A DNA stretch of 64,000 nt. Source: Mycolicibacterium gadium. Its GTDB lineage: Bacteria; Actinomycetota; Actinomycetes; Mycobacteriales; Mycobacteriaceae. The notes beneath the pieces were generated by a model. It was not told the origin of the DNA and did no database searches. It saw only the letters and a program-made list of their open reading frames with translations. Position numbers and translations under genes: made by a program. The DNA is taken from contig NZ_AP022608.1 of the NCBI RefSeq assembly GCF_010728925.1, positions 682,001 to 746,000 on the forward strand. Direction: 5' to 3'. Positions 9,592 to 42,262 of the stretch are shown one piece after another; positions within the stretch are counted from its first letter, which is position 1; every line of letters starts with the position of its first letter.

Positions 9592-9609
9592 CTATTTTTG
9601 CTAAGATAG
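9592..9609. promoter_or_regulatory. Island motif copy A (CTAT...ATAG element)
   Basis: CTATTTTTGCTAAGATAG stands 36 bases before the start of the Rieske oxygenase gene. The ends are inverted (CTAT/ATAG) and the inner bases are partly symmetric (TT-GC-AA). The same AT-rich 18-base pattern recurs at 17070, 24744, 32614, 39722 and 42245, always before operon starts in this island. It is probably an operator or an operator overlapping the promoter. Confidence 0.6.
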
Positions 9610-9644
9610 GAAAACTGTCCGCGGGGGCGTGATGGGGTGAGTGC

Positions 9645-11006
9645 ATGACCGATGTGGAGTGGACACCGCTGCCGGTGCCGTGGGCGGTGCGCAGCGTGGA
9701 CCGCATCCCCAAACAGCGGTATTTCGACCCGGACTTCTATGCGCTGGAGACGGAGTTGTTCTGGCCGAGGGTCTGGCAGATGGCGTGCCGCCTCGAAGAG
9801 GTCCCCAAGCCGGGCGATTTCGTCGAGTACGAGATCCTCGACCAGTCGATCATCGTCGTTCGCGTCGACGACAGCACCGTGCGTGCCTACTACAACGCGT
9901 GTCGACACCGCGGCATGAAGCTCATCGAGGGTAGCGGGACCCGTCGCAGCTTCGTCTGTCCGTTCCACGGGTGGTGCTGGGGACTCGACGGCAATAACAC
10001 CTTCGTGTTGCGCTCCGAAATGTTCGACGACGCCAACCTCGACGCCGATGATCTCGCACTGACGCCGGTGCGATGCGAGCTGTGGGGCGGATGCGCGTGG
10101 ATCAATCTCGACGACGATGCGCCCCCGCTGCGTGACTGCATCGAGCCGTTCGGGTCCCGCCACGACGAATTCAAGGTGGAGGCGCTACGCACCGAGTGGT
10201 GGAAATCCTGCCTGCTACCCGTGAATTGGAAGCTGGCCACGGCGGCCTTCATGGAGGGCTACCACGTCCCCCAAACGCACCCGCAGCTGTTGCCGTCGGC
10301 GTACAGCCCGGATTCGTCGTCGGTACATCCGGTGGTGCAGGCGAGCCTGTATTTCATGCGAACGCTGGGGTCCGGCATGGGCGGTATGACGCACGAGAAC
10401 GACATCCGCATTGCCGAAGGCCTGCAACACATGTCGCTCCCGGACGATCCCGCCGAAGCGATGGCGACCTGGCGCGGCGCGGTCAATGATGCGGTCACCA
10501 GTTGGCACAGGGCGCGCGACTGCGATTTTCCCGACCTCAACGATCTGGAGCGGCGACGCGTCATCGACCCGATCGGGTTCTGCTTCCCGCACTACTTCAT
10601 CCTTCCCCAGTACAGCAGCGCGTCGTCGTATCGCATTCGTCCCCTAGGGCCGGAGGAGACGCTGTTCGAGGTCTGGTCGCTCACCCGCTACCCGAACGAT
10701 CGAGCGCCCGGTAAGCCCGCCGCGCCGCAACCGCTGGCTCCCGACGATCCGAGCTGGCCGATGATTCCGGCCCAGGACTTCTCGAACCTGCCTCGGCAGC
10801 AGAAGGGGCTGCACGCCAAGGGATTCGAGTACATGCGGCTGTCCGACCAGATCGAGGGCCTGATCTCGAACTTCGAGCGAGTCATCGATGGCTTCATCGC
10901 CGGCCTGCCGTACGACCAGCTGGTGCCCGCCATACAGCGCACCAATACGACGATCGACGTGCCCGTCGCCGAGCTCGGGCTGTCGGAGAAGGTTCGCGCA
11001 TGGTGA
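9645..11006 (+). CDS. Rieske non-heme iron ring-hydroxylating oxygenase, alpha subunit
   Basis: A 453-residue oxygenase. The Rieske [2Fe-2S] ligands are C86/H88 and C105/H108 (CRHRG and CPFHGW). The catalytic domain has NWKLATAAFMEGYHVPQTH, giving iron ligands H207 and H212; the residue that is usually the bridging aspartate is E204. No small beta subunit is encoded beside it, so it is probably an alpha-only enzyme. The downstream flavoprotein overlaps it by 7 bases, so the two are translated together. Electron donors would have to come from elsewhere, for example the Rieske ferredoxin at 24790. The substrate is unknown. Confidence 0.92.
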   Translation: MTDVEWTPLPVPWAVRSVDRIPKQRYFDPDFYALETELFWPRVWQMACRLEEVPKPGDFVEYEILDQSIIVVRVDDSTVRAYYNACRHRGMKLIEGSGTRRSFVCPFHGWCWGLDGNNTFVLRSEMFDDANLDADDLALTPVRCELWGGCAWINLDDDAPPLRDCIEPFGSRHDEFKVEALRTEWWKSCLLPVNWKLATAAFMEGYHVPQTHPQLLPSAYSPDSSSVHPVVQASLYFMRTLGSGMGGMTHENDIRIAEGLQHMSLPDDPAEAMATWRGAVNDAVTSWHRARDCDFPDLNDLERRRVIDPIGFCFPHYFILPQYSSASSYRIRPLGPEETLFEVWSLTRYPNDRAPGKPAAPQPLAPDDPSWPMIPAQDFSNLPRQQKGLHAKGFEYMRLSDQIEGLISNFERVIDGFIAGLPYDQLVPAIQRTNTTIDVPVAELGLSEKVRAW

Positions 11007-12685
11007 ATTGGGACGCGTCCGTCGACTTACTGATAGCGGGGAGTGGCGGTGGCGGAATGGTCGCTGCCCTGGCCGCGCTCGATGCGGGGATCGAACCGCT
11101 GGTGGTCGAAAAGCAGAGTCTCGTCGGCGGATCGACCGGAATGTCGGGCGGCATGGTGTGGCTGCCCGACAACCCGCTGATGCGTGCATGCGGAATTGCC
11201 GACTCCCACGAGGACGGCATGGCCTATTTCGATGACGTGGTCGGCGATATCGGGGAGGCGTCGTCGGTCGCGCGCCGTGAGACATTCCTGACCGCCGGTA
11301 GCGCGATGATCAACCTGCTTGTCGACAACGGTGTCCGGCTGGTGCGGTGCCCCGGTTGGAGCGATTACTACCCGAACCACAAGGGTGGCAACGCCGCCGG
11401 GCGCTCGGTTGAGGGCATCCCGTATGACGCAGCGCAGCTCGGGGATTGGAGTGACAAGATCCAGCCGTCGATGGCCAAGAACTACGGGTTCGTGATCAAG
11501 ACCAACGAGTTGCGCGCGGTGCAGTACTTCAACCGTTCGTCCCGGGCGTTTGGGATCGCGATGCGAGTGTTCCTGCGCACCAGGGCGGCCCGCCTCCGAA
11601 ACCGTGAAATCCTGACCAACGGTGCGTCGCTGATCGGGCAGATCCTGAAGGCGCTGATGAACTTCGACGGTAAGCCGTCAGTGGGAGTAAGCGGCCAGCC
11701 ACCGATTTGGACCGACACCGCCATGGACGACCTCATCGTCGAAGACGGGCGGGTGGTCGGCGCGCGCGTGACGCGCGACGGCACGACGATGAACATCCAG
11801 GCGCGCAAGGGGGTGCTGCTCGCCGCCGGCGGGTTCAGCCGCAACGCCGACATGCGCCGCCGATACAGCGGCGACCAGCCCAACGAGGGCAAGTGGTCGA
11901 TCGCCAACGCCGGCGACACCGGGGAGGTACTGCAGACGGCAATGGCGCTGGGTGCGAAGACGGACCTGCTCGACGAAGCATGGTGGCTACCTATGGTCTT
12001 CATTCAGGATCCCGGGGCGGCGTCGCTGGGATCTGGACGGCAGCGGCCCGGCGCCATCTACGTCGACGGCACCGGCAAGCGGTTCTGCAACGAGTCGAAC
12101 TCCTACGTCGAAGTCGGCAAGGCGATGTACGCGAACAAGGCGGTGCCCTGCTGGCAGGTGTTCGACGAGGGCTACGTCCGGCGCTACGTGTCGGGGGCGA
12201 ATCCGCTGAAGAAGCGCAGCCTGTCGGAGTCCCTGATCGAACAGGGCGCGGTCAAGCGCGCCTCAACGATCGCCGATCTGGCACGGCAAATGGATGTGCC
12301 TGCCGACGCGTTGGAGCAGACGGTCAAGCGGTTCAACGAATTCGCCGCCAAGGGCCTTGACCCCGACTTCGGACGTGGGCAGTCGGCCTACAACATCTGC
12401 CTCGGCGATCCGGGTTACAAGCCGAACGCCGCGGTCGGACCGCTCGACACAGCGCCGTACTACGCGACCAGGGTGTTCCCCGCCGACGTCGGGACGTGCG
12501 GGGGAGTGATCACCAACGAGCACGCCCAGGTGTTGGACGAGCAGGACCAGGTGATCGAAGGTCTCTACGCGACAGGCAATATCACCGCGACGGTGATGGG
12601 CCGGAACTATCTGGGCGCAGGCGGCAGCATCGCCAACACGATGATCTTCGGGTATGTCGCCGCCCGCCACGCCGCCGGTCAGTAG
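11000..12685 (+). CDS. FAD-dependent dehydrogenase related to 3-ketosteroid delta-1-dehydrogenase
   Basis: A 561-residue flavoprotein of the fumarate reductase/KstD superfamily. The FAD-binding loop GSGGGGMVAALAALDAG is at about residues 14-30, followed by VVEK and the GGSTGMSGGMVWLP segment typical of KstD-like enzymes. The C-terminal NYLGAGGSIANTMIFG matches the second FAD-contact region, with a tyrosine where KstD has its catalytic one. KstD proteins introduce a 1,2 double bond into a 3-keto ring. That identity is suggestive rather than proven, because the family is broad. Coupling to the Rieske oxygenase points to sequential attack on one ring. Confidence 0.85.
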   Translation: MVNWDASVDLLIAGSGGGGMVAALAALDAGIEPLVVEKQSLVGGSTGMSGGMVWLPDNPLMRACGIADSHEDGMAYFDDVVGDIGEASSVARRETFLTAGSAMINLLVDNGVRLVRCPGWSDYYPNHKGGNAAGRSVEGIPYDAAQLGDWSDKIQPSMAKNYGFVIKTNELRAVQYFNRSSRAFGIAMRVFLRTRAARLRNREILTNGASLIGQILKALMNFDGKPSVGVSGQPPIWTDTAMDDLIVEDGRVVGARVTRDGTTMNIQARKGVLLAAGGFSRNADMRRRYSGDQPNEGKWSIANAGDTGEVLQTAMALGAKTDLLDEAWWLPMVFIQDPGAASLGSGRQRPGAIYVDGTGKRFCNESNSYVEVGKAMYANKAVPCWQVFDEGYVRRYVSGANPLKKRSLSESLIEQGAVKRASTIADLARQMDVPADALEQTVKRFNEFAAKGLDPDFGRGQSAYNICLGDPGYKPNAAVGPLDTAPYYATRVFPADVGTCGGVITNEHAQVLDEQDQVIEGLYATGNITATVMGRNYLGAGGSIANTMIFGYVAARHAAGQ

Positions 12686-12696
12686 TTACCGCCGAG

Positions 12697-12746
12697 CAGA
12701 CGCAAACCTGCCCATTTTCGACGGGAAAAGGGCAGGTTTACGTCTG
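12697..12746. terminator. 17-bp-stem hairpin between convergent genes
   Basis: CAGACGCAAACCTGCCC (12697-12713) pairs with 12730-12746, with a single G-T wobble; the loop itself contains a short TTTTC/GAAAA pairing. It lies between the ends of the KstD-like gene and the convergent enoyl-CoA hydratase gene. A bidirectional terminator is the simplest reading; there is no T-run. Confidence 0.65.
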
Positions 12747-12762
12747 TTCGCGAGAAGAAGTT

Positions 12763-13584
12763 TCACGTCTGCTCCTCGATGAAATCCCTTGGCTTCTTGC
12801 CGGATTCGATCAACAAACGCCGTCGTTCCTGAACGTCGGTGGCCGCGCCGACCATGTTCGTCAGGATGTGGCTCACCTGAAGATGCACCCGCATACCCAT
12901 CAGCTCGTAGGCCCGCTTGACGTTGTTCTTCACCGCCATTGACGTGGTCAGCGGAATCTGGCCGATCTTGCGGGCCATCTCCTCGACGGTGTCCTCGAGC
13001 TGATCGCGGGGCACCACCTTGTTCAGCAAGCCCCACTCCAGAGCCTCCTGCGCGGACAGCGTGGGCGCCAGCAGCAGCCAGTCCATGGTGCGATGCCAGT
13101 TCATCAGCAGCCACGGCTCGATCATCGTGTGGCCACCGGGCTCGCCGAGGCTCTGCGCGAGCGGCATCTGGAAGTACGCATCCTCGGATGCGACGCAGAA
13201 ATCGGTGAGCAGGCCGAGATAAATGCCGCCGCCCATGCAGTAGCCGTGGATCTGCGAGATCGTCGGCTTCGGGAACTCCCACAGGTACAGCGTCGGCCAG
13301 AGGAACAAGTCGGCGGTGCCCTTGTAGAGATCTTCGAACGTGTCCCCGAAATCGGGGTAGGGATTCTCGTCCGGACCCCACCGTGCGACGTGCCCGCCGC
13401 AGAACCCCTTGCCGTTGGCCTTCAGGATGACGACCTTGATGTCCTTGTCGCGGTCGGCCTCCCGCAGGCAGGCGTCGACCTCCTGCACGAGCTGCGCGTC
13501 CTTGGTGTTGGCCTTGTCCGGGCGGTTGAGAATGATCCGCGCGATCGGCGGCTCACGTTCGTAGATGACCGCTTCGAGCTTCAT
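12763..13584 (-). CDS. Enoyl-CoA hydratase/isomerase (crotonase family)
   Basis: A 273-residue crotonase. The CoA and oxyanion-hole region reads ILKANGKGFCGGH, followed by PTISQIHGYCMGGGIYLGLLTDFCVASEDA and a loop GEPGGHTMIEPWLLMNW where canonical hydratases carry a catalytic glutamate. The protein is clearly paralogous to the product at 19931, with several shared blocks, so the island carries two copies of this uncommon crotonase type. It is the last gene of a four-gene minus-strand operon (FadE, FadE, CaiB, this gene). AGGAG lies 8 bases before the ATG. It could hydrate an enoyl-CoA or open a ring hydrolytically; the sequence does not decide. Confidence 0.9.
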   Translation of the reverse strand: MKLEAVIYEREPPIARIILNRPDKANTKDAQLVQEVDACLREADRDKDIKVVILKANGKGFCGGHVARWGPDENPYPDFGDTFEDLYKGTADLFLWPTLYLWEFPKPTISQIHGYCMGGGIYLGLLTDFCVASEDAYFQMPLAQSLGEPGGHTMIEPWLLMNWHRTMDWLLLAPTLSAQEALEWGLLNKVVPRDQLEDTVEEMARKIGQIPLTTSMAVKNNVKRAYELMGMRVHLQVSHILTNMVGAATDVQERRRLLIESGKKPRDFIEEQT

Positions 13585-13593
13585 TGGCGTCTC

Positions 13594-14814
13594 CTAGAGA
13601 ATCGCTCCGCTGTCCTTGGCCGCCGAGATGTCGTCCCAGTCGAGGTCGAGCTCCAACAGGATCTCCTCGGTGTGCTGTCCATGTTCGGGAGCCCGCGCCC
13701 CCTGCGGCGGGGTTTCGTTGAATTGCACTGGCGCGGCGACGATCTGATACTCGTTGCCTTGGTCATCCACGTTGGCGACGACGTAGCCGTTCGGCCTGAC
13801 CTGCGGATCGTTGAGTGTCTCCTTCGGCGTGGCCAACGCGGCCCACACACCGGGTTCGTCGGCGAGCACCTTGCGCCAGTGGTCCAGATCCTCGCTGGCC
13901 AGACGGTCTCCGACGAGCGCGCAAGCCTCGGTGGCGTTGGCGATCAGATTGCTGGACGGGACGAAGCGTTCGTCGGTGGCGAGTTCCGGCAGGCCGATCC
14001 GCTCACAGAACCCCGCCCAGAACCGGTCCGGTTGTAGGAAGACCATCTGGATCCACCGGCCGTCACGGGTCTTGTAACGGTTGACGAGCGGGTTGATCGC
14101 CAGGCCGGGTGGCGCGCCGGGGATGCCGTCGATGTCGAAGAGGTCGGCGACCGAGATCGACGGCGCGATGGTCCACATCGCCTGCGCGAGCAGAGACGAG
14201 TCGACAATGCTCGGTTCTCCGGTGCGCTCGCGATGGAACAGCGCGGCACACACACCCCCGGCGAGCGTGATCCCACCTTGCAGATCACCGAACCCGGGCC
14301 CCTGCACCGCGGGCGTCTCCGTGCCGAACGGCGTCATGGTGTACGACACCCCGCCGCGGGATAGGTAGGTGGCCGCGTCGAAACCGCCTTTGTCACGATC
14401 GGGTCCGCGTACTCCGGTTCCGGTGCCGCGAGCGATGATGATGTCTGGATTGAACGAGCGGATGTCATCGACGGTCAGCCGGGCCCGCTCCAGCGCCCCG
14501 GGCAGCCAATTGGTGAGGAAGACGTCCGCGGTGGCCAGTAGGCGTCCGAAGTACTCGCGGCCGGTGTCGGACTTGATGTCGACGGCGATGCTGCGCTTGC
14601 CCCGGTTGCCGATCTCGAGGATGAAATCGATGTGCGCCCTGGCGTTCTCCTTCGTGAATCCACCGATGACCAGTGCCCGACCCGGATCGCCCGCCTTGAC
14701 GTCCTCGACCTTGATGACGTCGGCGCCCCAGTCGGCGAGCGCCGCGCCGGCCGAGGGAACGTATGTCCACGAAGCCAATTCGACGACACGCACACCACTG
14801 AGAACTCCGGTCAC
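13594..14814 (-). CDS. CaiB/BaiF family (class III) CoA transferase
   Basis: A 406-residue class III CoA transferase, which moves CoA between carboxylic acids through a covalent aspartyl-CoA. The N-terminal LSGVRVVELASWTYVPSAG and GADVIKVED motifs are typical, and the catalytic aspartate is probably in GPGFGDLQGGITLAGG. The GTG start at 14814 overlaps the upstream FadE stop (GTGA) and has AAAGGAG 9 bases before it, so longer upstream extensions are rejected. It likely activates or recycles CoA for an acid intermediate of the pathway. Confidence 0.9.
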   Translation of the reverse strand: MTGVLSGVRVVELASWTYVPSAGAALADWGADVIKVEDVKAGDPGRALVIGGFTKENARAHIDFILEIGNRGKRSIAVDIKSDTGREYFGRLLATADVFLTNWLPGALERARLTVDDIRSFNPDIIIARGTGTGVRGPDRDKGGFDAATYLSRGGVSYTMTPFGTETPAVQGPGFGDLQGGITLAGGVCAALFHRERTGEPSIVDSSLLAQAMWTIAPSISVADLFDIDGIPGAPPGLAINPLVNRYKTRDGRWIQMVFLQPDRFWAGFCERIGLPELATDERFVPSSNLIANATEACALVGDRLASEDLDHWRKVLADEPGVWAALATPKETLNDPQVRPNGYVVANVDDQGNEYQIVAAPVQFNETPPQGARAPEHGQHTEEILLELDLDWDDISAAKDSGAIL

Positions 14815-17038: not shown

Positions 17039-17069
17039 GGCGTCCTCTTGGCGCTGATTGGTTTCTTTA

Positions 17070-17087
17070 TAATTTTAGGTAGTATAG
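17070..17087. promoter_or_regulatory. Island motif copy B
   Basis: TAATTTTAGGTAGTATAG lies in the divergent promoter between the FadE operon (minus) and the E1/lipoyl operon (plus). It matches copy A at 12 of 18 positions, including ATTTT and the terminal ATAG, and sits within a longer AT-rich patch with a TATAAT hexamer at 17067-17072. It is the weakest of the six main copies. Confidence 0.45.
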
Positions 17088-17350
<263 letters not shown>

Positions 17351-17368
17351 GAGAGGGGAGCAGCACAG

Positions 17369-18666: not shown

Positions 18667-18677
18667 GGTAGGCGCCA

Positions 18678-19908: not shown

Positions 19909-19930
19909 ACCACAGAAAGGTTGTTCTTCC

Positions 19931-20797: not shown

Positions 20798-20806
20798 GGG
20801 TGTCCG

Positions 20807-24743: not shown

Positions 24744-24761
24744 CTATCTTTACTATTTTAG
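24744..24761. promoter_or_regulatory. Island motif copy C
   Basis: CTATCTTTACTATTTTAG lies in the divergent promoter between the P450 and the Rieske ferredoxin. It differs from copy D (read on the minus strand) at only one base, although the surrounding DNA is unrelated, and this is the strongest pairwise evidence that the motif is functional. Confidence 0.65.
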
Positions 24762-27334: not shown

Positions 27335-27384
27335 TCTCGGTGCGCTGGCGATCGCTGAGCGGTCGTATGCGCACCGAAATCACT
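27330..27384. terminator. 16-bp-stem hairpin covering convergent stop codons
   Basis: AGTGATCTCGGTGCGC (27330-27345) pairs with 27369-27384 with one mismatch, around a 23-base loop. The arms contain or touch the stop codons of the amidohydrolase (plus) and the SDR (minus). A shared two-way terminator is the likely role; no T-run is seen. Confidence 0.6.
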
Positions 27385-28096
27385 GTTTGGCGGTGCGTCG
27401 CTCGGCTTCCAGCGGGACCACGGGCTCGCGGGCGTGCGGCCCGCGGGTGATTGCGTGCAAACGGATTTCGGGCAGGTCGACCGATGGGTCGAGGGTGTCC
27501 AGCCAGGCCACGGCGTCGGCGACATCGGCGGCGCGGATCGCGTACATCTCGAACGGCACTTCCTGCAGCATCTCGGTCTCGACGGGCCCGGGGGTGACGA
27601 TGTGTACGTTGATGCCGTCGCGGTCGACCTCGCGCGCCAGCGCGCCCGCGAACGCGTTCATGCCGGCCTTCGACGCCGAATACGCCGTCCGCGCCATCAT
27701 CGGTTCGTGGGCGGCCGATGACGAGATGAACACGAAGCGTGAGCCCCGCCGCATCTTCGGCAGCGCCGCCGACGTGACCACGAAACACGAGTCGAGGTTC
27801 GCCGACATCGTCGCGCGCCACTGATCGAAAGTCTGCTTGCGAGCATAGGTTCCGCCGAGAATTCCCGCCGCATGCACGACGAGATCGATCTCGTCGAGCG
27901 CGTCCACTGCGGCGGCGAACGTCTCGGGCTGCGCCGCGTCGGCGACGGCGTAGCGCGCACCGATGGCCGCGGCCGCGGCGCGCAGGGGCTCTTCGCGCCT
28001 GGCAGTCAGGACGACGTCGTAGCCGAGCTCGACGAGCTTGCGCCCGCACGCGTTTCCGATTCCACCGCTGCCGCCGGTCACCAAGGCACTACGCAC
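27380..28096 (-). CDS. Short-chain dehydrogenase/reductase
   Basis: A 238-residue classical SDR: TGGSGGIG cofactor loop at residues 7-14, a VVHAAGI equivalent of NAG, SSSAAHEP with the catalytic serine and YSASKAG with Tyr/Lys. It lacks the GQGRSHA extension of the mycofactocin-type SDRs, so it probably uses free NAD(P). GTG start at 28096, 9 bases after the GntR stop, so the two form an operon. It could act as a 3-hydroxyacyl-CoA or alcohol dehydrogenase of the pathway. Confidence 0.88.
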   Translation of the reverse strand: MRSALVTGGSGGIGNACGRKLVELGYDVVLTARREEPLRAAAAAIGARYAVADAAQPETFAAAVDALDEIDLVVHAAGILGGTYARKQTFDQWRATMSANLDSCFVVTSAALPKMRRGSRFVFISSSAAHEPMMARTAYSASKAGMNAFAGALAREVDRDGINVHIVTPGPVETEMLQEVPFEMYAIRAADVADAVAWLDTLDPSVDLPEIRLHAITRGPHAREPVVPLEAERRTAKQ

Positions 28097-28105: not shown

Positions 28106-28915
28106 TCAGAGCTTGCGTCGGGCCAGTGCCTGCGGCGACAGCGCCACGATCCGCTGCTCGGGATCGACGGCGCTGAAGTAGGTCTGGGTGTCGGCGATGT
28201 GACGTGCTGACAACTTGCGGGCACGCTCGCCGTCGCCGGCTTCGATGGCGTCGGAGATCTTGTTGTGAATCGACATTGCGATGCGGCGTTGACTGATCGA
28301 CGGGTATTCGCCGCGCGCCGTGGTCTCTTGGGCCCACCAGTTCAGGTGACCGGTCCACAGTGTCTCCAGGCTCCCCACGACGGCGATCATCGTGTGGTTG
28401 CCGCAGCCGCGGACGACCTCGTCGTGGAACTGCCCACCGATCTCGGTGAACTGCGGTCCGTCCTCGATACGCTCGGCCATCAGCGCGTTGATCTCTTTGA
28501 GCTTCGGAACGAGCTCGTCGCCGCGGTCGGGACGCCGCGCCGCCAGCGCCGCGCACATGGGCTCGAGTTCCTGCAGTGCAGCGCCCAGGTCGGAGAGGGG
28601 AACGGTGTCGCTCTGCAGCAGGAGTCCGAGCATGTAGGCCGCGCTGGCCTTGGCGGGCGCGTGCACGACGGCACCGCCCCGGTTGCCGCGGCGCACCGAC
28701 ACCAGACCCTCGGTTTCGAGGATCCGCAAGGCTTCCCGCAACGACACCAGGCTCACCCTGAACTGCTCGACGAGTACCTCCTGGCGGGGCAGCAAGTCAC
28801 CGTCGGCGAGTTCGCCGTCGATGATCTGCCTGCGGAGCTCGTCGGCGACGATCTCGGCCGTCCGCCGCGATCCCAACCGGCGGCGGGCCTCGGGGCCAAT
28901 TCCCAGCGTGGTCAT
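28106..28915 (-). CDS. GntR family regulator, FadR/FCD subfamily
   Basis: A 269-residue regulator. The winged helix lies at about residues 20-90 (LRRQIIDGELADGDLLPRQE, then LREALRILETEGLVSVRRG), followed by an all-helical FCD ligand-binding domain with GGQFHDEVVRGCGNHTM and a late H-IADTQTYF. FCD regulators usually respond to organic acids or acyl-CoAs. It is the only DNA-binding regulator inside the island, divergent from the tandem CoA transferase gene, and thus a candidate local controller; its own upstream region does not contain a good copy of the shared 18-bp motif. Confidence 0.9.
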   Translation of the reverse strand: MTTLGIGPEARRRLGSRRTAEIVADELRRQIIDGELADGDLLPRQEVLVEQFRVSLVSLREALRILETEGLVSVRRGNRGGAVVHAPAKASAAYMLGLLLQSDTVPLSDLGAALQELEPMCAALAARRPDRGDELVPKLKEINALMAERIEDGPQFTEIGGQFHDEVVRGCGNHTMIAVVGSLETLWTGHLNWWAQETTARGEYPSISQRRIAMSIHNKISDAIEAGDGERARKLSARHIADTQTYFSAVDPEQRIVALSPQALARRKL

Positions 28916-28973
28916 ATCGCCGATAATGCTAACAGTGAAACGTCCGCTACCTGGGGTGTACGCAATCGCTATC

Positions 28974-28998
28974 TGACAAAAGTTACTAATATGACAAA
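28974..28998. promoter_or_regulatory. Direct repeat TGACAAA in the GntR/CaiB divergent promoter
   Basis: TGACAAA occurs at 28974-28980 and again at 28992-28998, 18 bases apart, with TTACTAATA between. The spacing of nearly two helical turns on one face suits a dimeric or paired regulator site. The inner TTACTAATATG loosely resembles the second half of the island motif (about 10 of 18 matches). It may be a GntR site or a diverged island motif. Confidence 0.35.
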
Positions 28999-29021: not shown

Positions 29022-31328
29022 GTGAGTGACGTCGAAGATGTAGCACCTACGCCGCTGCATGATCTGCGCGTCGTCGAGGTCAGCGATCGTATCGCGGGTG
29101 CGTATTGCGGGAAGTTGATGGCCGACGCGGGGGCCGACGTCATCAAGGTGGAACCGGCCGGCGGTGACCCGCTGCGCCGTTTCACCGCGTCGGGTTCCGT
29201 GCCGCACGACGGTGCGGACGCGCCGCTGTTCGCGTACCTGAACGCCGGGAAGCGCAGCGTGACAGGCATTTCCGAGGAGCTGCTGACCGGCGCGGACATC
29301 GTGATCGTCACGGGAACCAGGGCCGCGGCGACCGCGCAGGGGATCGACCCGAAGCGCCTGCTCGAAAAGTCGCCCGGCCTCGTCATCGTCACCATCTCCG
29401 ACTTCGGCTGGACGGGTCCATGGGCCGAACGCCCCGCAACGGAGTTCACCTTGCAGGCCGACTCCGGGCTCACCGGGTTTCGCGGCGATCCCGCGGGCCC
29501 ACCGATCTCCGTCGGCGGCGACCTGGGGGAGTACCAGGGCGGGGTGTGGGCAGCCTACGGCGCACTGGCCGCTCGCCGCGGGGTCAGCCGAGGAGGTCGC
29601 GGCGCGCACCTCGACATGTCGATGCTCGAGGCGATCACGCTGATGCAGAGCGGCGAGTGGCTGCATTCGCAACTGCTGAACGCCCCGCACGTCCGGCGCT
29701 CGGTCGAAGTCCCGTCGATCGAACCGGCGAAAGACGGTTTCGTCGGCATCAGCATGGTGACGGGGCAGCAGTGGCTGGACTTCGCGGCGATGGTGGACTG
29801 CCCGGAGTTCACCGAGGTGCCCCAGCTGCAATTCCAGATCGGGCGATGGGATTACCGCGATTGGATCCGCGAGCGCATCGACCCTTGGATGCGTGAGCGC
29901 ACCGTCGCCGAGATCGTCGAACTGGGGCAACTGTTCAGGTTGCCGCTCGCCGCGCTGGGAAACGGCGCCACCGTCCGCGAGATGGATCACCTGCGGGAGC
30001 GCGGTGTGTACGTCGAGAACCCGGCCGGGTTTGCGCAACCGCGTCCGCCGTGGTTGATGTCCGTCGCCGCACCGTCGCCGATCCGGACCGCACCCGGGGT
30101 CGGCGACTCGGACAACGAACCTCTTTGGGAACCAAGGCGATCAACACCTGACGCGACGGCGGGTCGCCCCCTGGCCGGTGTGCGGGTCATCGACTTCACC
30201 GCGTTCTGGGCTGGACCATCGGCGACGCATTCGCTGGCGGCGTTCGGGGCCGAGGTGATCAAGATCGAGTCGATCCAGCGGCCCGACGGCATCCGCTACT
30301 CCGGCGGGATGCGCAAGGACGTCGACGACTGGTGGGAGTACGGCTGGGTCTTTCACGCCATGAACACGAACAAGCGGTCGGTCACCCTCGATCTGCAGTC
30401 CGAGGCCGGACTCGGTCTGATCAAATCGTTGATCGCGCAGGCCGATGTGGTGATCGAGAACTTCTCACCGCGAGTGATGGATCAATTCGGGCTCGGCGCA
30501 GACGCGTTGCTCGAACTGAACCCGCGGCTGGTGATGGTGCGTATGCCGGCTTTCGGGCTGACCGGGCCGTGGCGCGACAGGGTGGGCTTCGCGCCCACCA
30601 TGGAGCAGATCGCGGGCCTCGCCTGGGTGACCGGCATGCCGGACGGACTCCCAGTCGCCCCGCGTGGCGCCTGCGATCCGCTGGCGGGGACGCACGCGGC
30701 GTTCGCGCTCGTGGCGGCACTCGAGTTCACCGAACGCACCGGTCGCGGTCAACTTGTCGAGGTGCCGATGGTCGAGAGTGTGCTCAACGTGACCGCCGTG
30801 CAGCCCATGGAATTCGAGATGTTCGGGACGATCCTGGAGCGGCGCGGCAACAAGGGGCACCACCCCGGCGAGATGCAGGACATCTACCGGTGCGCGGGCG
30901 ACGACAGCTGGATTGCCATGACCGTTCGCACCGATGCCGAACGGGACGCGCTCGCCGCGTTGATGAACGGTCAGGGCGACCCCGCGCCATGGCTCGCCAC
31001 GCAGGACGCCGTGGCCGTCGTCGAGCGGCTGGTCGCGGCCGGCATTCCTGCGGCCGTGGTGATTTCGCCGTCCGTGGTGATCGACAACCCGCAGCTGGTA
31101 CACCGCGGCTTCTTCGAGCCGCTCACCCATCCGAGCACCGGACCCGGTCTGTACCCGTGTCCGCCGTTCGCTCGGCTCGACGGCATGGACGCCTGGCTGT
31201 ACCGTCCGCCCCCACGGCTGGGCCAGCACAACAGCGAGGTGCTGACAGGCCTGTGCGCGCAGACGGACGAGGATCTGAAACGCCTTGCGGCCGAGGGCGT
31301 CATCGGCACCAGACCGAAAGGGCTCTGA
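29022..31328 (+). CDS. Tandem (fused) CaiB/BaiF class III CoA transferase
   Basis: A 768-residue protein made of two complete class III CoA-transferase domains. Domain 1 (about 8-365) starts LHDLRVVEVSDRIAGAYCGK with GADVIKVEPAGGDPLR; domain 2 (about 380-765) starts LAGVRVIDFTAFWAGPSATH with GAEVIKIESIQRPDG. Class III enzymes are interlocked dimers, so the fusion would act as a built-in heterodimer. By alignment to the family, domain 2 has the catalytic aspartate in RGACDPLAGTHAAF, whereas domain 1 reads GGDLGEYQGGVWAAYG, with glutamate at the matching place. GTG start with GGGAGG upstream; divergent from gntR. Confidence 0.9.
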   Translation: MSDVEDVAPTPLHDLRVVEVSDRIAGAYCGKLMADAGADVIKVEPAGGDPLRRFTASGSVPHDGADAPLFAYLNAGKRSVTGISEELLTGADIVIVTGTRAAATAQGIDPKRLLEKSPGLVIVTISDFGWTGPWAERPATEFTLQADSGLTGFRGDPAGPPISVGGDLGEYQGGVWAAYGALAARRGVSRGGRGAHLDMSMLEAITLMQSGEWLHSQLLNAPHVRRSVEVPSIEPAKDGFVGISMVTGQQWLDFAAMVDCPEFTEVPQLQFQIGRWDYRDWIRERIDPWMRERTVAEIVELGQLFRLPLAALGNGATVREMDHLRERGVYVENPAGFAQPRPPWLMSVAAPSPIRTAPGVGDSDNEPLWEPRRSTPDATAGRPLAGVRVIDFTAFWAGPSATHSLAAFGAEVIKIESIQRPDGIRYSGGMRKDVDDWWEYGWVFHAMNTNKRSVTLDLQSEAGLGLIKSLIAQADVVIENFSPRVMDQFGLGADALLELNPRLVMVRMPAFGLTGPWRDRVGFAPTMEQIAGLAWVTGMPDGLPVAPRGACDPLAGTHAAFALVAALEFTERTGRGQLVEVPMVESVLNVTAVQPMEFEMFGTILERRGNKGHHPGEMQDIYRCAGDDSWIAMTVRTDAERDALAALMNGQGDPAPWLATQDAVAVVERLVAAGIPAAVVISPSVVIDNPQLVHRGFFEPLTHPSTGPGLYPCPPFARLDGMDAWLYRPPPRLGQHNSEVLTGLCAQTDEDLKRLAAEGVIGTRPKGL

Positions 31329-31331
31329 CTC

Positions 31332-32576: not shown

Positions 32577-32610
32577 GCCTTCTCCTCGCGTCGCCGTCCT
32601 TGACCTAGAA

Positions 32611-32634
32611 TGCCTAAAATAGTAAAAATAGGCA
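32611..32634. promoter_or_regulatory. Island motif copy D, extended inverted repeat
   Basis: On the minus strand the core reads CTATTTTTACTATTTTAG (plus-strand 32614-32631). Here the flanks add symmetry: TGCCTA at 32611-32616 and TAGGCA at 32629-32634 form a perfect 6-bp inverted repeat around 12 bases. It lies in the divergent promoter of the P450 and the KshA-like oxygenase. Confidence 0.68.
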
Positions 32635-32686
32635 ACGGGCAGGTTTGACGACCTGCGGTTATCGTGCGCTCGGATGGAGATACGGC

Positions 32687-33820
32687 ATGACGGCAGGGTC
32701 TTTTCAACAAGAAGAAGTTCACGACCCGCAGATCGATCCATCTGAACGCGAGTTCGGCCCGAGTGGGATCAGCCTCTCGACGTACCGCTTTCCGACGGGT
32801 TGGTTCATCGTCGGCTTCGCCTCGGATCTGAAACCCGGTCAGGTCAAGCGCGCGCACTACTTCGGCGAGGAACTGGTGATGTTCCGCACCAAGTCCGGCA
32901 AGGTGAACGTGCTCGACGCCTACTGTCTGCACCTCGGAGCGAACATGGGCGTCGGCGGCACCGTCGAGGGTGAGCACATCGTCTGCCCGTGGCACGGCTG
33001 GGAGTGGCGCGGTGACGGCACCAACGCACTGATCCCGTACAGCAAGATCGGCTGCAAGCAGAACGTGAGGATCAAGTCCTATCCCACCCAGGAGTGGTAC
33101 GGCTTCATCGTCGTATGGCACGAGCGTCACGGCCGCGCCCCCTACTGGCAGCCACCGGTGCTGCCCGAACTCGAAACCGACGAGTACTACCCGCTGCACC
33201 CACATTCGCGGATGCTCAATCGGGTCAAGGTGCACGCGCAGATGATCATCGAGAACGCGGCCGATCCGTATCACGTGCAGTTCGTGCACAAGGCCGACAG
33301 CGCCGCCAACACCACGTCGTTCGACGCCAACGGCTACCACCTGCATGCGACGGTGACCGCGAATTTCGGCGGCGGACGCCCGTCGACGTGGCTCACCCCC
33401 GACGGGCCCGTCGACGCCAACATCATCTACGACAACTACTCGCTGGGCCTCGGCATCGTGCGCTTTCCGAAGGAGCTGGTCGCGACCATCGAGGTCACGG
33501 GTCAGACACCGGTCGACGAGGACTACACCGATTACTTCTACACCCAGGCCTCGGTGCGAGAGCCCGGCGACACCGGCGACAAGCCGGCTGGCCGCGCGGC
33601 GAAATTCCTTGCGCTGCAACAGGAGGTCATCAAGCAGGACTTCTTCACCTGGGAGAACATGAAGTACCTCGAGAAGCCCAACCTGGCACCGGAGGAGGCG
33701 CGCGACTACGCGGCGTTGCGGCGGTGGGCGCACCGGTTCTATCCGGGTGAAGAGCCATCGCCGATCGACTTCGGGTACACCGTCGACGGTGAGCCCGATC
33801 CGGCGGCAGCGGGGGCGTGA
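32687..33820 (+). CDS. Rieske oxygenase, KshA-like
   Basis: A 377-residue Rieske oxygenase resembling the oxygenase subunit of 3-ketosteroid 9-alpha-hydroxylase (KshA) in length and layout. Rieske ligands C80/H82 and C100/H103 (CLHLG, CPWHGWEWRGDG). Mononuclear iron site in ENAADPYHVQFVH, with D193, H196 and H201. The ATG at 32687 is preferred (GGAGATACGGC upstream). No KshB-type reductase is seen in the island. The KshA/KstD combination points to a ring-hydroxylation step on a steroid-like or other alicyclic ketone, but the substrate could differ. Confidence 0.88.
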   Translation: MTAGSFQQEEVHDPQIDPSEREFGPSGISLSTYRFPTGWFIVGFASDLKPGQVKRAHYFGEELVMFRTKSGKVNVLDAYCLHLGANMGVGGTVEGEHIVCPWHGWEWRGDGTNALIPYSKIGCKQNVRIKSYPTQEWYGFIVVWHERHGRAPYWQPPVLPELETDEYYPLHPHSRMLNRVKVHAQMIIENAADPYHVQFVHKADSAANTTSFDANGYHLHATVTANFGGGRPSTWLTPDGPVDANIIYDNYSLGLGIVRFPKELVATIEVTGQTPVDEDYTDYFYTQASVREPGDTGDKPAGRAAKFLALQQEVIKQDFFTWENMKYLEKPNLAPEEARDYAALRRWAHRFYPGEEPSPIDFGYTVDGEPDPAAAGA

Positions 33821-35421: not shown

Positions 35422-35429
35422 GAGATGAA

Positions 35430-36807: not shown

Positions 36808-36825
36808 CTTTATGTCGCTCCTTCA

Positions 36826-36853
36826 TTGCCGAATGTTGGGTTATTACACGCTT
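36826..36853 (+). repeat. Left terminal inverted repeat of the IS30-type element
   Basis: Begins TTGCCGAATGTTGGG and ends ACACGCTT. It matches the reverse complement of 38202-38229 at 22 of 28 positions, with both outer (TTGCCGA) and inner (CACGCTT) blocks perfect. Confidence 0.75.
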
Positions 36854-36897
36854 TTCGGGCCTTGGGGTCTAGGGGTCGATGCAACAGTCTCTGATTC

Positions 36898-38188
36898 GTG
36901 TGGAGGCGTGTTGCGTTGTCTGTTTTGACTTTGAGCTCTGTTGTTCGTCAGTTCTGGAGGCATGTCAGTGATGGCCATACTGTCGAGGAGGCAAGCTGGG
37001 CTGTCGGCGTGTCGAGGCGCACGGGATTTCGCTGGTTCCGCGACGCTGGCGGGGTGAAACCACGATCGGTAGTGCCCAGCTCATCGGGCCTGAAGCCGCG
37101 GATGACGCTGCAGGATCGGATTCAGATCGAAATCGGCGTGGCGACCAATGAGTCGCTGCGTGCGATTGGTAGCCGGCTGTTACCTCCTCGGCCGGCGTCG
37201 ACAATCAAACGCGAAATCGATAACAACGGCCGACATACCGTCGATCACCCGGACCGCAACTCAGGGTATCGGCGAAAGCATGCGTTCGGGGCACGCCAGA
37301 GTACGCAGCGCCGCGGGGCTACTGCGCGCTGACGGCGCAGGCATACTCTGATCGGCGGGCGCGTCGCCCGAAAGCGGGCAAGCTGGCTGTTAGCGAGAAG
37401 CTGCACGATGAAGTGCAGGCCCGGCTGCTCGACGAGCACAGTCCCAAGCAGATCGCCAAGCGGTTGGTGCTGGATTTTCCCGACGATGTGGAGATGCGGG
37501 TGTCGCACGAAACCATCTACACCTCGATTTATGTCCAGGGCAAAGGCAGTCTGCGTCGCGAACTGCATACCTGTCTGCGCACCGGGCGAGCGTTGCGTAA
37601 GCCCCAGCGCCGCCCCGATGAACGCCGTGGTCGCATCCGCGACATGGTCAACATCAGTGAGCGTCCACCCGAGGTTGAAGACCGCAGGTGCCCGGGCATT
37701 GGGAGGGCGATCTGATCCTGGGCAGTACTGCCTCGGGTTCAGCGATTGGCACCGTGGTCGAACGGATGACCCGGTTTGTGATGCTGCTGCATCTGCCCGA
37801 CGATCACACCGCGGTGGCCGTGCAGGAAGCGATCGTGGCGAAAATGGCGCAACTGCCGTTGATCCTGCGCAAAACACTGACCTGGGATCAGGGCAGCGAG
37901 ATGGCCAACCATGCGGCGATCGCCCAAGCCGCCGAGCTCAATATTTACTTCTGCGATCCGCACTCCCCGTGGCAGCGCGGCACCAATGAGAACACCAACG
38001 GCCTACTGCGCCAATACTTTGCCAAAGGCACCGACCTATCGGTCTTTCCGGCCGATTACCTCGACTACGTCGCGACCAAACTCAACCGCCGGCCCCGCGA
38101 AACCTTGAGCTGGAAAACACCCGCCGAAGCCCTCGACGAACTACTGTCCAACCCGTCCAAACCACCCGCTGTTGCATCTACCGCTTGA
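36898..38188 (+). pseudogene. IS30 family transposase, two frameshifts
   Basis: Three successive frames together give a full IS30-type transposase of about 430 codons. The first part carries the helix-turn-helix (TVEEASWAVGVSRRTGFRW) and ends in a stop at 37330-37332; the second starts near 37318 (ALTAQAYSDRRARRPKAGKL and on) and ends just after 37700; the third starts near 37688 (VPGHWEGDLI). The DDE residues are all in the last part: GHWEGDL, TWDQGSE and HSPWQRGTNENTNG. The shifts lie near 37318 and 37690 and look like single-base losses or gains; no slippery sequence is seen. The transposase is probably inactive unless the shifts are sequencing errors. Confidence 0.85.
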
Positions 38189-38201
38189 AACCGCCGGCGT
38201 G

Positions 38202-38229
38202 AAGCGTGGCACAACACGACACTCGGCAA
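38202..38229 (-). repeat. Right terminal inverted repeat of the IS30-type element
   Basis: On the minus strand begins TTGCCGAGTGTCGTG and ends CCACGCTT; partner of 36826-36853. Confidence 0.75.
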
Positions 38230-38234
38230 AAGAG

Positions 38235-39692
38235 TTAGGCGAGATCGGGCAGCTTGCTCGCGCTCACCGTCGACTGCAACTCGACGTACTCCGACAGTCC
38301 CTCGGATCCGAATTCGCGGCCGATCCCTGACTGCTTGAATCCGCCGAACGGCGCGGTCGTGTCGAGCGTGTACATGTTGATGCCGTACGTACCCGTCCGG
38401 ACTTCCGCTGCGATCTCCAGACCACGGGTCACGTCCGCCGTCCAGACGGAGCCGGCCAGCCCGTAGTCGGTGTCGTTGGCGATCCGCACGGCGTCGGCCT
38501 CGTCGCGGTACTTCAGTACGGTCAACACCGGACCGAAGATCTCCTCCCGCGCGATCGTCATATCGTTGGTCGCGTCGGCGAACAGCGTCGGCTGGACGTA
38601 CCAGCCGCGGTCATAGGGTTTGTCCTTGCCGCCCAGGATCATTCGCGCACCCTCATCGAGCCCCGCCTGGATGTAACCCTGCACCTTCTGCTGTTGGCGC
38701 TGCGCAACCAGCGGTCCGATGTCGGTGGCGTCGTCGGCGGGGTCGCCCACCTGCAGGCCGGTCATCATGCCGGCGAGCGCGTCGACGACCTCGTCGTGCT
38801 TGCGCTCGCTCACCAGAATCCGGGTCTGCGCGACGCAGGCCTGCCCGTTGTTCATCAGGCTGGCCATCTTCAGATGCTTGACCGTGTGGTCGATGTCCGC
38901 GTCGTCGAGAATGATGGCGGCCGACTTGCCACCCAGTTCGAGGCTAACCCGCTTGAGTTGTTCGCCGCACAGGGCGGCGATGTGCCTGCCCGTCGCCGAC
39001 GATCCGGTGAACGAGATCTTGTCGACGCCGGGGTGACGGACCAGAGTTTCGCCGGTCTCCCTACCGCCCGGGACGATCGACACGACACCTTCGGGCAGAT
39101 CGATCTCCTCCAGCATCTCGGCCAACCACATGGCGTCCAAAGGCGTTTCGGGGGCGGGCTTGACCACGACCGTGCAACCCGCGATCAGCGCCGGGATCAT
39201 CTTCGGCATGATCAGGAACTGCGGCACGTTCCACGGCACGATCGCACCGACCACACCCACGGGAGCACGCCGTACGTGCACATCGCCGAACAATCCCGGG
39301 CGTCGCTCGACCCACGGAAACTCCTTGGCCGTCGCCATGTTGAGGTGCATCTGGGCGAGAGCACCGGCGCCCTGCCCCAGCCTGCTGAAGCTCTTGGGTG
39401 AGCCCATCTCCGCGGTGATCAGGTCGGCGATCGCGTCGGTCTCGGCCATGTAAATGGCGGCGAGCTTCTCGATCTTCTCCATGCGTTCGCCGACACTGAG
39501 TCGGGGCCACGGTCCCTCGTCGAACGCGGTTCTGGCGGCGGCGACCGCCTTGTCGACGTCCGCGGGGGCCGCTTCCGGGGTCTCGCCGATCGATTGCTCG
39601 GTGTGTGGGGAGATCACGGAGAGTCGCTGATCCGTCGACGGTGTCAGCCAGCGGCCGCCGATGAAGAGCTTGTCGTAGTTGAGGGATCGCAT
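38235..39692 (-). CDS. NAD(P)-dependent aldehyde dehydrogenase
   Basis: A 485-residue aldehyde dehydrogenase. VGAIVPWNVPQFLIMPKMIPALIAG (cofactor region), SFTGSSATGR, the general base in LELGGKS, the catalytic cysteine in NNGQACVAQTR, and EEIFGPVL are present. The ATG at 39692 (MRSLNYDKLFIGG) is the normal family start. Island motif copy E lies 30 bases upstream in the promoter shared with the CrtC/AttH-like gene. It probably oxidises an aldehyde made by the island alcohol dehydrogenase to an acid for CoA ligation. Confidence 0.93.
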   Translation of the reverse strand: MRSLNYDKLFIGGRWLTPSTDQRLSVISPHTEQSIGETPEAAPADVDKAVAAARTAFDEGPWPRLSVGERMEKIEKLAAIYMAETDAIADLITAEMGSPKSFSRLGQGAGALAQMHLNMATAKEFPWVERRPGLFGDVHVRRAPVGVVGAIVPWNVPQFLIMPKMIPALIAGCTVVVKPAPETPLDAMWLAEMLEEIDLPEGVVSIVPGGRETGETLVRHPGVDKISFTGSSATGRHIAALCGEQLKRVSLELGGKSAAIILDDADIDHTVKHLKMASLMNNGQACVAQTRILVSERKHDEVVDALAGMMTGLQVGDPADDATDIGPLVAQRQQQKVQGYIQAGLDEGARMILGGKDKPYDRGWYVQPTLFADATNDMTIAREEIFGPVLTVLKYRDEADAVRIANDTDYGLAGSVWTADVTRGLEIAAEVRTGTYGINMYTLDTTAPFGGFKQSGIGREFGSEGLSEYVELQSTVSASKLPDLA

Positions 39693-39721
39693 GTCGCCGC
39701 CTGTCCTACCGCCTAAAGTTG

Positions 39722-39739
39722 CTATTAATATAAACATAG
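39722..39739. promoter_or_regulatory. Island motif copy E
   Basis: CTATTAATATAAACATAG, with perfect CTAT/ATAG ends, lies between the divergent aldehyde dehydrogenase and CrtC/AttH-like genes. Like copy A it is preceded by TTG (TTGCTAT). Confidence 0.6.
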
Positions 39740-39756
39740 TGAAAAAGGCAGGGCCC

Positions 39757-41082
39757 GTGAACCACCCGCAATCAGACGATTGGCGCCGATACCCGTTCGC
39801 GCTGGTACCGGAGGACCGTCAGCTCGATTTCCCGGCCGCTGAGGCCAACCACCCGCAGTGCGAGTCCGACACGTGGTTTCTGGCAGGCGAACTGACCGGT
39901 CGGAGCGGCCGCGGCTACGCGTTCCTGTCGATCTTCAACAAGAACCGCCCTGGGCTCGGGGATATCGTCGCCGACTTCTACACGTTAGCGCTGTTCGATC
40001 TCGACGCAGGCACCTACGGCACGTACACCGACTACGACATGCCGCCCGCGAACATGGAACCCGGGGCCGTCCCCAAAATGACCTTCGTCGACGAATGCCT
40101 CGACATCAGCTATGACAGCGGGGCCGGTCGCGCGGTCTGGCGTACCTGTCGCGACGACAACGGCGACCTGGTGCCCTACACCTATGACGTGACGCTCGTC
40201 GGCACCGATGCGGCCGGTGCCCAGATGAGGGTGGACCTGCATGTGACCCCGACGCGGGCGCCGGTGCCGCTGGGCGCCGCGGAGTTCGGCGGCAGGATCG
40301 AATGTTTCGGCCAGGCCGACACCTACTCCTATCTGCAGACGGGCCTGACGATGACGGGAACGCTGACGTGGGGTTCGTCGAGCGAGCCGGTCAGCGGCAC
40401 CGCGGGCCACGTCGACCGGCAGTGGTTCCCGCTGATCGCCAACAGCGGTGGTGCGGACGGCGATGTCCGCTGGCGCGCCCACGAGTGGCGCACGATCAAT
40501 CTCGACAACGGCGTGGACATGAGCATCTGGCGACAGTTCGATCGAACCGATCGCAATTCGCTGCAACCCTTTTCGGGCGCCACCACCAGCTCGCCGGAGC
40601 CCGGCGTCGACCCCGAGTTCGCCGACGACATCGAGGTGTCCATCGAGAGCTACGTCCGCTGGCCCGAAGCGGTTCGGACTTTGTACAAGCCCCCGGCGAA
40701 GGCCAGATATCTGCCGGACCGGCACCGACTGACGTCGCGCAAGCTCGATCTGGACCTGACCGGTGAGCCGATGGTGCCGGCGCCGGGACACGGCCTGCCC
40801 CTGGAATACATGGAGGGCCCGTTCCACTATCGCGGGACGTTTCGCGGTGAGCCGGTGAGTGGGTTCGCCTTCTACGAAAGGTCTTTGGCGCTCTACCGCG
40901 ACTGGGAACTGGTCGATGTCCTCGCCAGCGCCGTGGGTGAGGAGCGCGTGACGGCACTGCGCACGCTGGTCGAGGACGGCCGACGTGACGAAGCCGTGGC
41001 ACACCTGCGCGACGAGATCCTCCCGTCGGGAGCCGGGATCACCGAGCTTGTCGACGATCTGATCGTGGCGCTGTCTCGCTGA
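39757..41082 (+). CDS. CrtC/AttH-like lipocalin-type protein
   Basis: A 441-residue protein with a two-part beta-rich pattern resembling the AttH/CrtC (hydroxyneurosporene synthase-like) domain: FLAGELTGRSGRGYAFLSIFNKNR near the N-terminus and GTLTWGSSSEPVSGTAGHVDRQWFP in the middle, where the H-x-x-x-QW motif matches the hydratase/isomerase signature region. No signal peptide. Two GTG starts are possible (39739 and 39757); the second is chosen because AGGCAGGG precedes it. Its 3' end overlaps the convergent Rieske gene by 44 bases. Hydration or isomerisation of a double bond in a hydrophobic, terpene-like substrate is possible, but the function is not established. Confidence 0.7.
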   Translation: MNHPQSDDWRRYPFALVPEDRQLDFPAAEANHPQCESDTWFLAGELTGRSGRGYAFLSIFNKNRPGLGDIVADFYTLALFDLDAGTYGTYTDYDMPPANMEPGAVPKMTFVDECLDISYDSGAGRAVWRTCRDDNGDLVPYTYDVTLVGTDAAGAQMRVDLHVTPTRAPVPLGAAEFGGRIECFGQADTYSYLQTGLTMTGTLTWGSSSEPVSGTAGHVDRQWFPLIANSGGADGDVRWRAHEWRTINLDNGVDMSIWRQFDRTDRNSLQPFSGATTSSPEPGVDPEFADDIEVSIESYVRWPEAVRTLYKPPAKARYLPDRHRLTSRKLDLDLTGEPMVPAPGHGLPLEYMEGPFHYRGTFRGEPVSGFAFYERSLALYRDWELVDVLASAVGEERVTALRTLVEDGRRDEAVAHLRDEILPSGAGITELVDDLIVALSR

Positions 41083-42208
41083 TCGCCTCGGCCCACATCG
41101 TGTGGCGGTGCTGCAGACCGGGCTCATTGCGACCGAAGACCAGGTGCTCGCGCACTCCTGACTCGAGGTTGGCCTGCAGTCCCGCGACGAGCGCGTAGTC
41201 CTCGTCGCGGACAGTCGAATGCGCGTAATCGAATACCGCAGCCGCGCCCGCGGCCGTCGATTCGTCCGACAGATCCAGCGGCGTCGAGTTCTGGTGCACG
41301 GTGATCGAACGGCCCGGCACATCGCTGGGATAGACGCGGAACAGCTCGCCGTTGGCCACGGTGCACGAGATGACGATGTTGGGATGCAAAGCGTAGATGA
41401 CGACCATCGCCTGCAGCGGCTCCCACTGTTCCTCGGGGAGTTCGTCGAGGTCGAGAATACCGTTGAGCGGGAACACAAGTCGGTGATGAGGCCCGAACGA
41501 GTCGAAGACTGTGCAGTTGCTGCGGGCGATCGTCGCGAACGTCGTCTTGTGCACCGTGGCGAAGTGGTAGTTCTCGGCGAAGGTGTCGATGGCCAGCTTC
41601 CAATTGATCGGGCAGTCCAGCACCTTCTCACCCAACGGCGACCAGCGGCCGATGCCCCACGAGTCCAGTTCCTCGGCCAGCGGTCCGAGGAACGCGGGAA
41701 TGTCCAGTGTGGCGTCGCGATCCAGCGAGACCCACAGGAAACCTGCACATTCGGCGGCCGGTAATTCGGTCAAACGTGCTGTGCCCGATGATGTTTCGGG
41801 AAATCCCTCCTTGCCTGGTACACCGGCTAGATTGCCACTGAGATCGTAGCTCCACGAGTGATAGGGGCAGGCGAGCCGGCGGGCGGCTCCGCATCCGTCG
41901 GTGATGCGCGACTGCCGGTGCAGACACACGTTCTCGAATGCGCGTACCACCGAGTCGGCAGCACGGGTCAGCAGAATGGACCGGCCCATCACCGTCTTGG
42001 TGCAATACGTGCCGGGCCGGGGGAGTTCTGAGACGTAGCCGACCAGCTGGGGGCTTGCCATCAACATCGCCACATCTCGGGCATGGCGCTCTGCCGACGT
42101 GTACGTCTCGGCGGCGACGGTGCTCTCCGTGGGCATGAGGTCGGTGGTCTTGTCCCGCGCGAGCTTCACTGCGCGGCGAGTGAGATCGATCAACTGGTCG
42201 CGGTCCAT
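41039..42208 (-). CDS. Rieske ring-hydroxylating oxygenase, alpha subunit
   Basis: A 389-residue Rieske oxygenase. Ligands C95/H97 (CLHRQS) and C114/H117 (CPYHSWSYDL). The catalytic site is NWKLAIDTFAENYHFATVH, again with glutamate where many relatives have the bridging aspartate. The second of two nearby ATGs (42208) is chosen because AGGA is properly spaced only for it. Island motif copy F begins 37 bases upstream. It stands alone, with no beta subunit or reductase beside it. Confidence 0.9.
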   Translation of the reverse strand: MDRDQLIDLTRRAVKLARDKTTDLMPTESTVAAETYTSAERHARDVAMLMASPQLVGYVSELPRPGTYCTKTVMGRSILLTRAADSVVRAFENVCLHRQSRITDGCGAARRLACPYHSWSYDLSGNLAGVPGKEGFPETSSGTARLTELPAAECAGFLWVSLDRDATLDIPAFLGPLAEELDSWGIGRWSPLGEKVLDCPINWKLAIDTFAENYHFATVHKTTFATIARSNCTVFDSFGPHHRLVFPLNGILDLDELPEEQWEPLQAMVVIYALHPNIVISCTVANGELFRVYPSDVPGRSITVHQNSTPLDLSDESTAAGAAAVFDYAHSTVRDEDYALVAGLQANLESGVREHLVFGRNEPGLQHRHTMWAEAISETAPRSDRRQAR

Positions 42209-42244
42209 CACCATTCCTGCGTCGTCGCCTGGTGGACTATCTGC

Positions 42245-42262
42245 CTATTTTTATAATGATAG
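42245..42262. promoter_or_regulatory. Island motif copy F
   Basis: CTATTTTTATAATGATAG lies between the divergent Rieske oxygenase and antigen 85-like genes. It contains TATAAT, a good -10 hexamer, so an overlapping promoter is likely. Its flank TGCCTAT matches that of copy D. Confidence 0.62.

Follow-up and report, generated by a model that had tools for sequence, protein, structure and literature searches.

A recurrent CTAT-N10-ATAG element in a Mycolicibacterium gadium catabolic island as the probable operator of a local regulon, with a GntR protein as its likely repressor

What is an AT-rich 18-bp element that recurs at six operon starts of one catabolic island, and which protein might read it? 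We addressed this question in a stretch of 64,000 nucleotides, hereafter the window (G000:C1:682001-746000), from the 5.96-Mb single-contig genome of Mycolicibacterium gadium. We consider it highly probable that the element serves a local catabolic regulon as its operator, with the GntR protein encoded in the island as the likely repressor; DNA binding, repression and release by a ligand are the parts of this proposal that we infer.

The core of the element is an 18-bp inverted repeat, CTAT-N10-ATAG, with a consensus of about CTATTTTTRCTAWNWTAG, and in several copies an additional half-site stands 8-9 bp away on one side. All six 18-mers reported in an earlier, sequence-only reading of this DNA are present at the positions it gave, the 32614 copy being on the minus strand, and the copies at 24744 and 32614 indeed differ by a single base (Table 1). 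A start codon lies 17-37 bp away from each of the six copies, and all of them contain TANNNT on each strand, which is a weak criterion because the pattern fixes just three bases and the DNA is AT-rich. The frame at 17121-17326 begins like an SDR gene but ends after 67 codons and so appears truncated; E1-type dehydrogenase genes follow it.

Table 1. Operator copies and principal island genes in the window (positions count from its first letter; E values are those of the held-out profile described in the text).
Feature	Position	Strand	Context	Evidence
Operator copy	9592..9609	+	35 bp upstream of Rieske oxygenase gene 9645-11006	Exact CTAT-N10-ATAG; top profile match, E 0.007
Weak operator copy	17070..17087	+	Acyl-CoA dehydrogenase (minus, start 17038) / truncated SDR frame (17121)	Score 18.5
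Operator copy	24744..24761	+	Between P450 (minus) and Rieske-type ferredoxin frame (start 24790)	E 0.51
Operator copy	32614..32631	-	37 bp upstream of P450; KshA-like gene (start 32687) opposite	E 0.044
Operator copy	39722..39739	+	Aldehyde dehydrogenase (minus, start 39692) / CrtC-like gene (start 39757)	Exact palindrome; E 2.3 (window alone)
Operator copy	42245..42262	+	Rieske oxygenase (minus, start 42214) / esterase	Exact palindrome; E 0.85 (window alone)
Diverged element, gntR side	28924..28941	+		CAATATTAACAGTGATAG (<=4 mismatches) in 23/24 gntR promoters of window-like loci
CTAT half-site and diverged 18-bp copy (28977-28994), CaiB side	28969..28994	+		Score 11.1
SDR gene	27380..28096	-	Downstream of gntR	PF00106; in 67/80 loci (best 80 of 167)
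GntR/FCD regulator, candidate binder	28106..28915	-		PF00392, 59.5 bits (cut-off 27); PF07729, 66.7 bits (cut-off 24.3)
Tandem CaiB-type CoA-transferase	29022..31328	+		PF02515, two stretches
CYP125-like P450	31332..32576	-		Closest PDB chain CYP125MRCA, 2.7e-87
KshA-like Rieske oxygenase	32687..33820	+		PF19298, PF00355; PDB 4qdc, 5e-32

The element had been called unlikely by chance, and shuffling bears this out: with up to three mismatches, CTATTTTTACTATNATAG matched four times in the window against 0.00 expected from 100 shuffles. The bare palindrome with up to one mismatch gave a weaker signal (8 matches against 2.66 expected, with 8 reached in one of the 100 shuffles). Over the whole 5.96-Mb genome, exact CTAT-N10-ATAG occurs at four places, three of them inside the window; because the reversed control occurs at 10 places, it is the clustering and not the genome total that is high. 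CTATTTTTRCTATNWTAG with up to three mismatches was found at five places in the genome, four of them in the window, against one forward and one reverse match for the reversed control.

Since these search patterns came from the window itself, we built an independent, sequence-only profile from 31 operator sequences at four promoters of slow-growing species. These rows represent 31 of 40 sampled sequences; those omitted were duplicates after trimming or near-duplicates, chosen without a fixed rule. Gaps served to realign two rows that had been cut with a shift of one base; the promoters at 9592 and 24744 lie outside the training set. Searched against the entire genome at E<=10, the held-out profile returned only three matches, all in the window, at 9592, 32614 and 24744, and on the window alone with filters off it also recovered the copies at 42245 and 39722. 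Even under the latter settings it did not recover the copy at 17070, which we therefore regard as the weakest. The genome scan proposed beforehand as a check thus did not find the motif at unrelated promoters. Outside the island, the sole match with three mismatches, CTATTTTTGTAATGACAG (G000:2138980, L087), lies between divergent DUF35-like and thiolase-like frames, named by eye. The fourth exact CTAT-N10-ATAG (G000:1009781, L004) stands directly upstream of a frame that appears GntR-like by eye, near a gluconokinase-like frame; its centre differs, and the match may be due to chance.

Conservation of the element was assessed in loci surrounding the KshA-like gene (best 80 of 167, each with a Mycobacteriaceae title; this sample also underlies the counts out of 80 below), among which the closest fetched relatives of the window were species such as M. 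tusciae and M. neglectum. At the P450/KshA-like promoter, the copy is identical to that of the window in 34 of the 80 loci and has at most three mismatches in 78, with five mismatches in L012 and L026. When up to five mismatches were allowed in the search for this site, the mean information at the 32614 site was 1.85 bits per position versus 0.64 in the flanks for the window-like group, and 1.78 versus 0.43 for the other group; the C group of promoter rows includes one row with five mismatches. The aldehyde dehydrogenase promoter beside CrtC carries exact CTAT-N10-ATAG in 53 of the 62 loci scanned (among the best 80 of 167) and a form one base off in seven; in L010 and L036 of these 62 the repeat is missing from this promoter but present at another position of the locus (17411 and 16558, respectively). 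A copy of the 24744 type stands near the same P450 in 19/80 loci, and the 42245 copy is identical in L005-L007. Slow growers have an extra copy upstream of an acyl-CoA dehydrogenase gene, and in 39 of 40 loci its end lies 7 bp from the ATG (group F, 40 of 42 distinct rows left after removal of A-site rows from truncated loci).

The architecture itself is also specific. CTAT-N10-ATAG occurs 61 times over 1.60 Mb, in 57 of 81 sequences, versus 0-8 occurrences for the other spacers from 4 to 15 and 1-8 for eight control half-sites, and a fixed distance separates the outer CTAT and ATAG while the centre varies. Of 198 congeneric genomes, 87 contain CTATTTTTACTATYTTAR with up to one mismatch and none contains its reversed control. 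The second check set beforehand, the presence of the motif at the same promoters in related islands, therefore also came out in favour of a regulon, with a motif that is rare genome-wide and kept where the islands correspond. A second conserved block follows the operator at the P450/KshA-like promoter in L005-L084, CATTCTAGGTCAAG in the window-like group and CATTGAACGTCAACG in the others, and GTCAA also occurs, with the same spacing, after the 42245 copy.

One promoter, that between gntR and the tandem CaiB gene, had been set aside as an exception with a different repeat. This was mistaken: the window carries diverged copies of the element there, and relatives carry plainer ones. The stronger divergence of the window copies at 28924 and 28977 accounts for the earlier impression. 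On the CaiB side, relatives show the form GCTATTTATA.CATTACTGCTAAAATAGC in one group and GCTATCYG.CAAAAGTTACTAAGATGR in the other; among the 67 loci in which gntR has the expected orientation (among the best 80 of 167), the first form was present in 43 and the second in 22, and neither was found in L016 and L032.

Does the operator travel with the genes or with the island? Homologues of the Rieske gene at 9592 and of the dehydrogenase at 17070 are shared by one set of 11 genomes out of 61, that of M. gadium among them. In G046, the only relative in which the gene arrangement at 17070 was found again, the two homologues stand about 5 kb from each other on a single contig, together with the motif CTATTTTTGCTACTTTAG and an 18-mer identical to that at 17070. 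In the other nine genomes the fetched stretches did not contain the motif, and the dehydrogenase promoters there (L129-L137) share a different element, for example TTGACCAAATATCTGTTCCAACGTAAAGT, which may be the promoter of another regulon. With nine genomes lacking the motif and G046 carrying it, the operator seems to follow island membership, which we take as suggestive.

The sequence-only reading had named the island GntR as a possible regulator, and it emerges as the best candidate. Among the gene families checked, GntR/FCD is the commonest DNA-binding gene of the island (68/80 loci), and all 13 genomes represented by the 12 GntR-less loci and L026 encode, outside the sequence that was fetched, a GntR of 73% identity or more; in G011 it lies just past the edge of that sequence. 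At a presence threshold of E<=1e-100, GntR was found in 93 of the 198 congeneric genomes: 86 have both motif and GntR, one has only the motif, seven have only GntR and 104 have neither. In the motif-only genome, G137, a GntR orthologue is split over two frames (G137:C370:5194-5992) on the same contig as the motif, by an assembly error or as a broken gene. Five of the seven GntR-only genomes have a motif match with two or three mismatches, including G042, where the reversed control also matches; in G170 and G214, where GntR is present, no motif was found at up to three mismatches. The Fisher value of this co-occurrence, 1.9e-46, takes no account of kinship or of linkage among the genes of the island, and we therefore give it no weight. 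Because the island moves as a block among related genomes, co-occurrence alone cannot single out GntR, and the presence of the element at the gntR promoter itself is a further point in its favour.

The GntR stretch VSLVSLREALRILETEGL is identical in all 81 rows of at least 71% identity. A 63%-identical paralogue has GCTAACATAGCAAAAAAG upstream and adjoins frames that look SDR-like and Rieske-like by eye. Upstream of a 49%-identical paralogue in the own genome (L089) stands a perfect-looking palindrome, GAGATAACAAAATTATCTC, perhaps its own operator. An AlphaFold model of the island GntR built from 23 sequences had a mean pLDDT of 60.2 and a pTM of 0.46; the 44 Foldseek matches listed at E<=0.001 are all GntR-type by title, but with TM-scores of about 0.23-0.31 we count the model as weak support. 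The best 120 of 484 homologues carry generic names only. Judged from sequence, the FCD-type GntR of the island is most likely the regulator.

How could such a protein act? An FCD-type GntR might bind the operator as one or more dimers at sites that would overlap or abut the core promoters driving the island operons and gntR. Once bound, it would block RNA polymerase, and binding of a pathway intermediate could release it. Repression by such promoter occlusion appears the most likely mode because the copies lie so close to the start codons. It had been suggested earlier that part of the pattern could be -10 sequence and that promoter and operator may overlap; the overlap is plausible given these distances and TANNNT on both strands, weak as the latter criterion is, but the motif is not merely a -10 element.

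It seems unlikely, by contrast, that GntR binds the operator and activates transcription. The block CATTCTAGGTCAAG or CATTGAACGTCAACG after the P450-promoter site could hold the -10 element and so place the operator near -35, which would speak for activation, but the slow-grower copy upstream of the acyl-CoA dehydrogenase gene is too close to the ATG for an upstream activator, and NanR is a repressor (PMC8012715).

Repression by GntR must also be weighed against the improbable case that the operator belongs to a regulator encoded elsewhere (TetR, MarR, MerR or other), with GntR controlling its own promoter or something else. The 14 bp between the half-site centres are wide for a classical FadR-type dimer, the co-occurrence does not tell island genes apart, and MerR genes lie near 20/81 loci (HTH_31/MLTR genes near 7/81). 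Neither type, however, was found in the window island, MerR is absent from the loci of the closest relatives of the window, and the element sits at the gntR promoter. The TetR gene at 3828-4424, in the flank of the window, follows the motif poorly and was rejected as a general regulator: an orthologue of at least 67% identity is present in 27 of the 87 motif genomes and also in 18 without the motif, two of which (G128 and G221) carry a weaker form of it. The frame at 36898-37332, downstream of the MaoC genes, matches HTH_38 and HTH_23 and may be a transposase remnant; it was likewise rejected, with no match at E<=1e-10 in the 80 loci. That the element is only AT-rich -10 promoter sequence is hardly tenable and refuted as a whole explanation: TANNNT on both strands would fit it, but in a genome with thousands of promoters the pattern scan returned just five places, four of them here, the held-out profile found window sites only, and the CTAT and ATAG spacing stays fixed around a variable centre.

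These results give a catabolic island with a CYP125-like P450, a KshA-like oxygenase and a tandem CaiB protein a candidate regulator and a precise operator; the GntR of this island occurs in 93 of the 198 sampled congeneric genomes. Since the P450 is nearest to CYP125MRCA and the oxygenase nearest to 3-ketosteroid 9alpha-hydroxylase among PDB chains, their sequences suggest a steroid- or terpenoid-like substrate; for the second P450, the PDB search pointed to no specific substrate. The island promoters could act as reporters to find the substrate. Neither the 18-mer nor a GntR regulator of the island was found in the literature covered (full texts, titles and abstract starts, with subscription papers mostly outside this scope). 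If GntR is the binder, a local GntR regulon would here use a non-canonical operator that departs from the consensus published for the FadR subfamily, and the specificity code of GntR proteins would be widened.

Sites in this regulon can be compared as repeats of boxes. The identity of 9-mers as direct repeats was best at an offset of 9 bp for A (32614, 0.77), D (24744, 0.65) and F (slow-grower dehydrogenase, 0.58), whereas the best offsets were 6 and 8 at E (42245) and 12 at G (gntR of slow growers), a site that can be read as the boxes CTATTTATA, CCATTACTG and CTAAAATAG. We tentatively entertain, at somewhat less than even confidence, that cooperative dimers from a GntR clade whose DNA-reading helix has been rebuilt recognise two or three 9-bp CTAT/ATAG boxes, and that genes joining the island acquire the operator, which would follow the place in the genome and not gene descent.

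Among known systems, the sterol regulons of mycobacteria resemble the island in having an operator common to operons for CYP125-like and KshA-like enzymes; their regulators, KstR and KstR2, are TetR proteins with other operators. In an alignment by eye with the E. coli FadR sequence, Arg35 of FadR corresponds to Glu45 and Arg45 to Leu56 of the island GntR, replacements that would fit a changed specificity. The island GntR shares with local catabolic regulons of the FadR subfamily (PMC4494728) the PF00392 and PF07729 domains, divergent promoters that include the regulator's own gene, and an AT-rich palindrome. The difference, which counts only if GntR binds, lies in the operator consensus, CTA/TAG here without the TKGT/ACMA (GT/AC) core; the same source lists NanR and BioR as exceptions to this core. 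The additional half-sites that it describes for the GntR family, at 7-12 nt from the centre of a site, are a partial resemblance to the operator seen here. Another is to NanR, three dimers of which bind three GGTATA boxes cooperatively (PMC8012715), although the 9-bp register is found at some sites only. NanR also gives the best NCBIfam score for the island GntR and is its top Foldseek match, the latter on a poor model (pLDDT 60, TM about 0.25). The box sequence differs, however, and with 82.4 bits the island GntR falls below the NanR equivalent-protein cut-off of 260.
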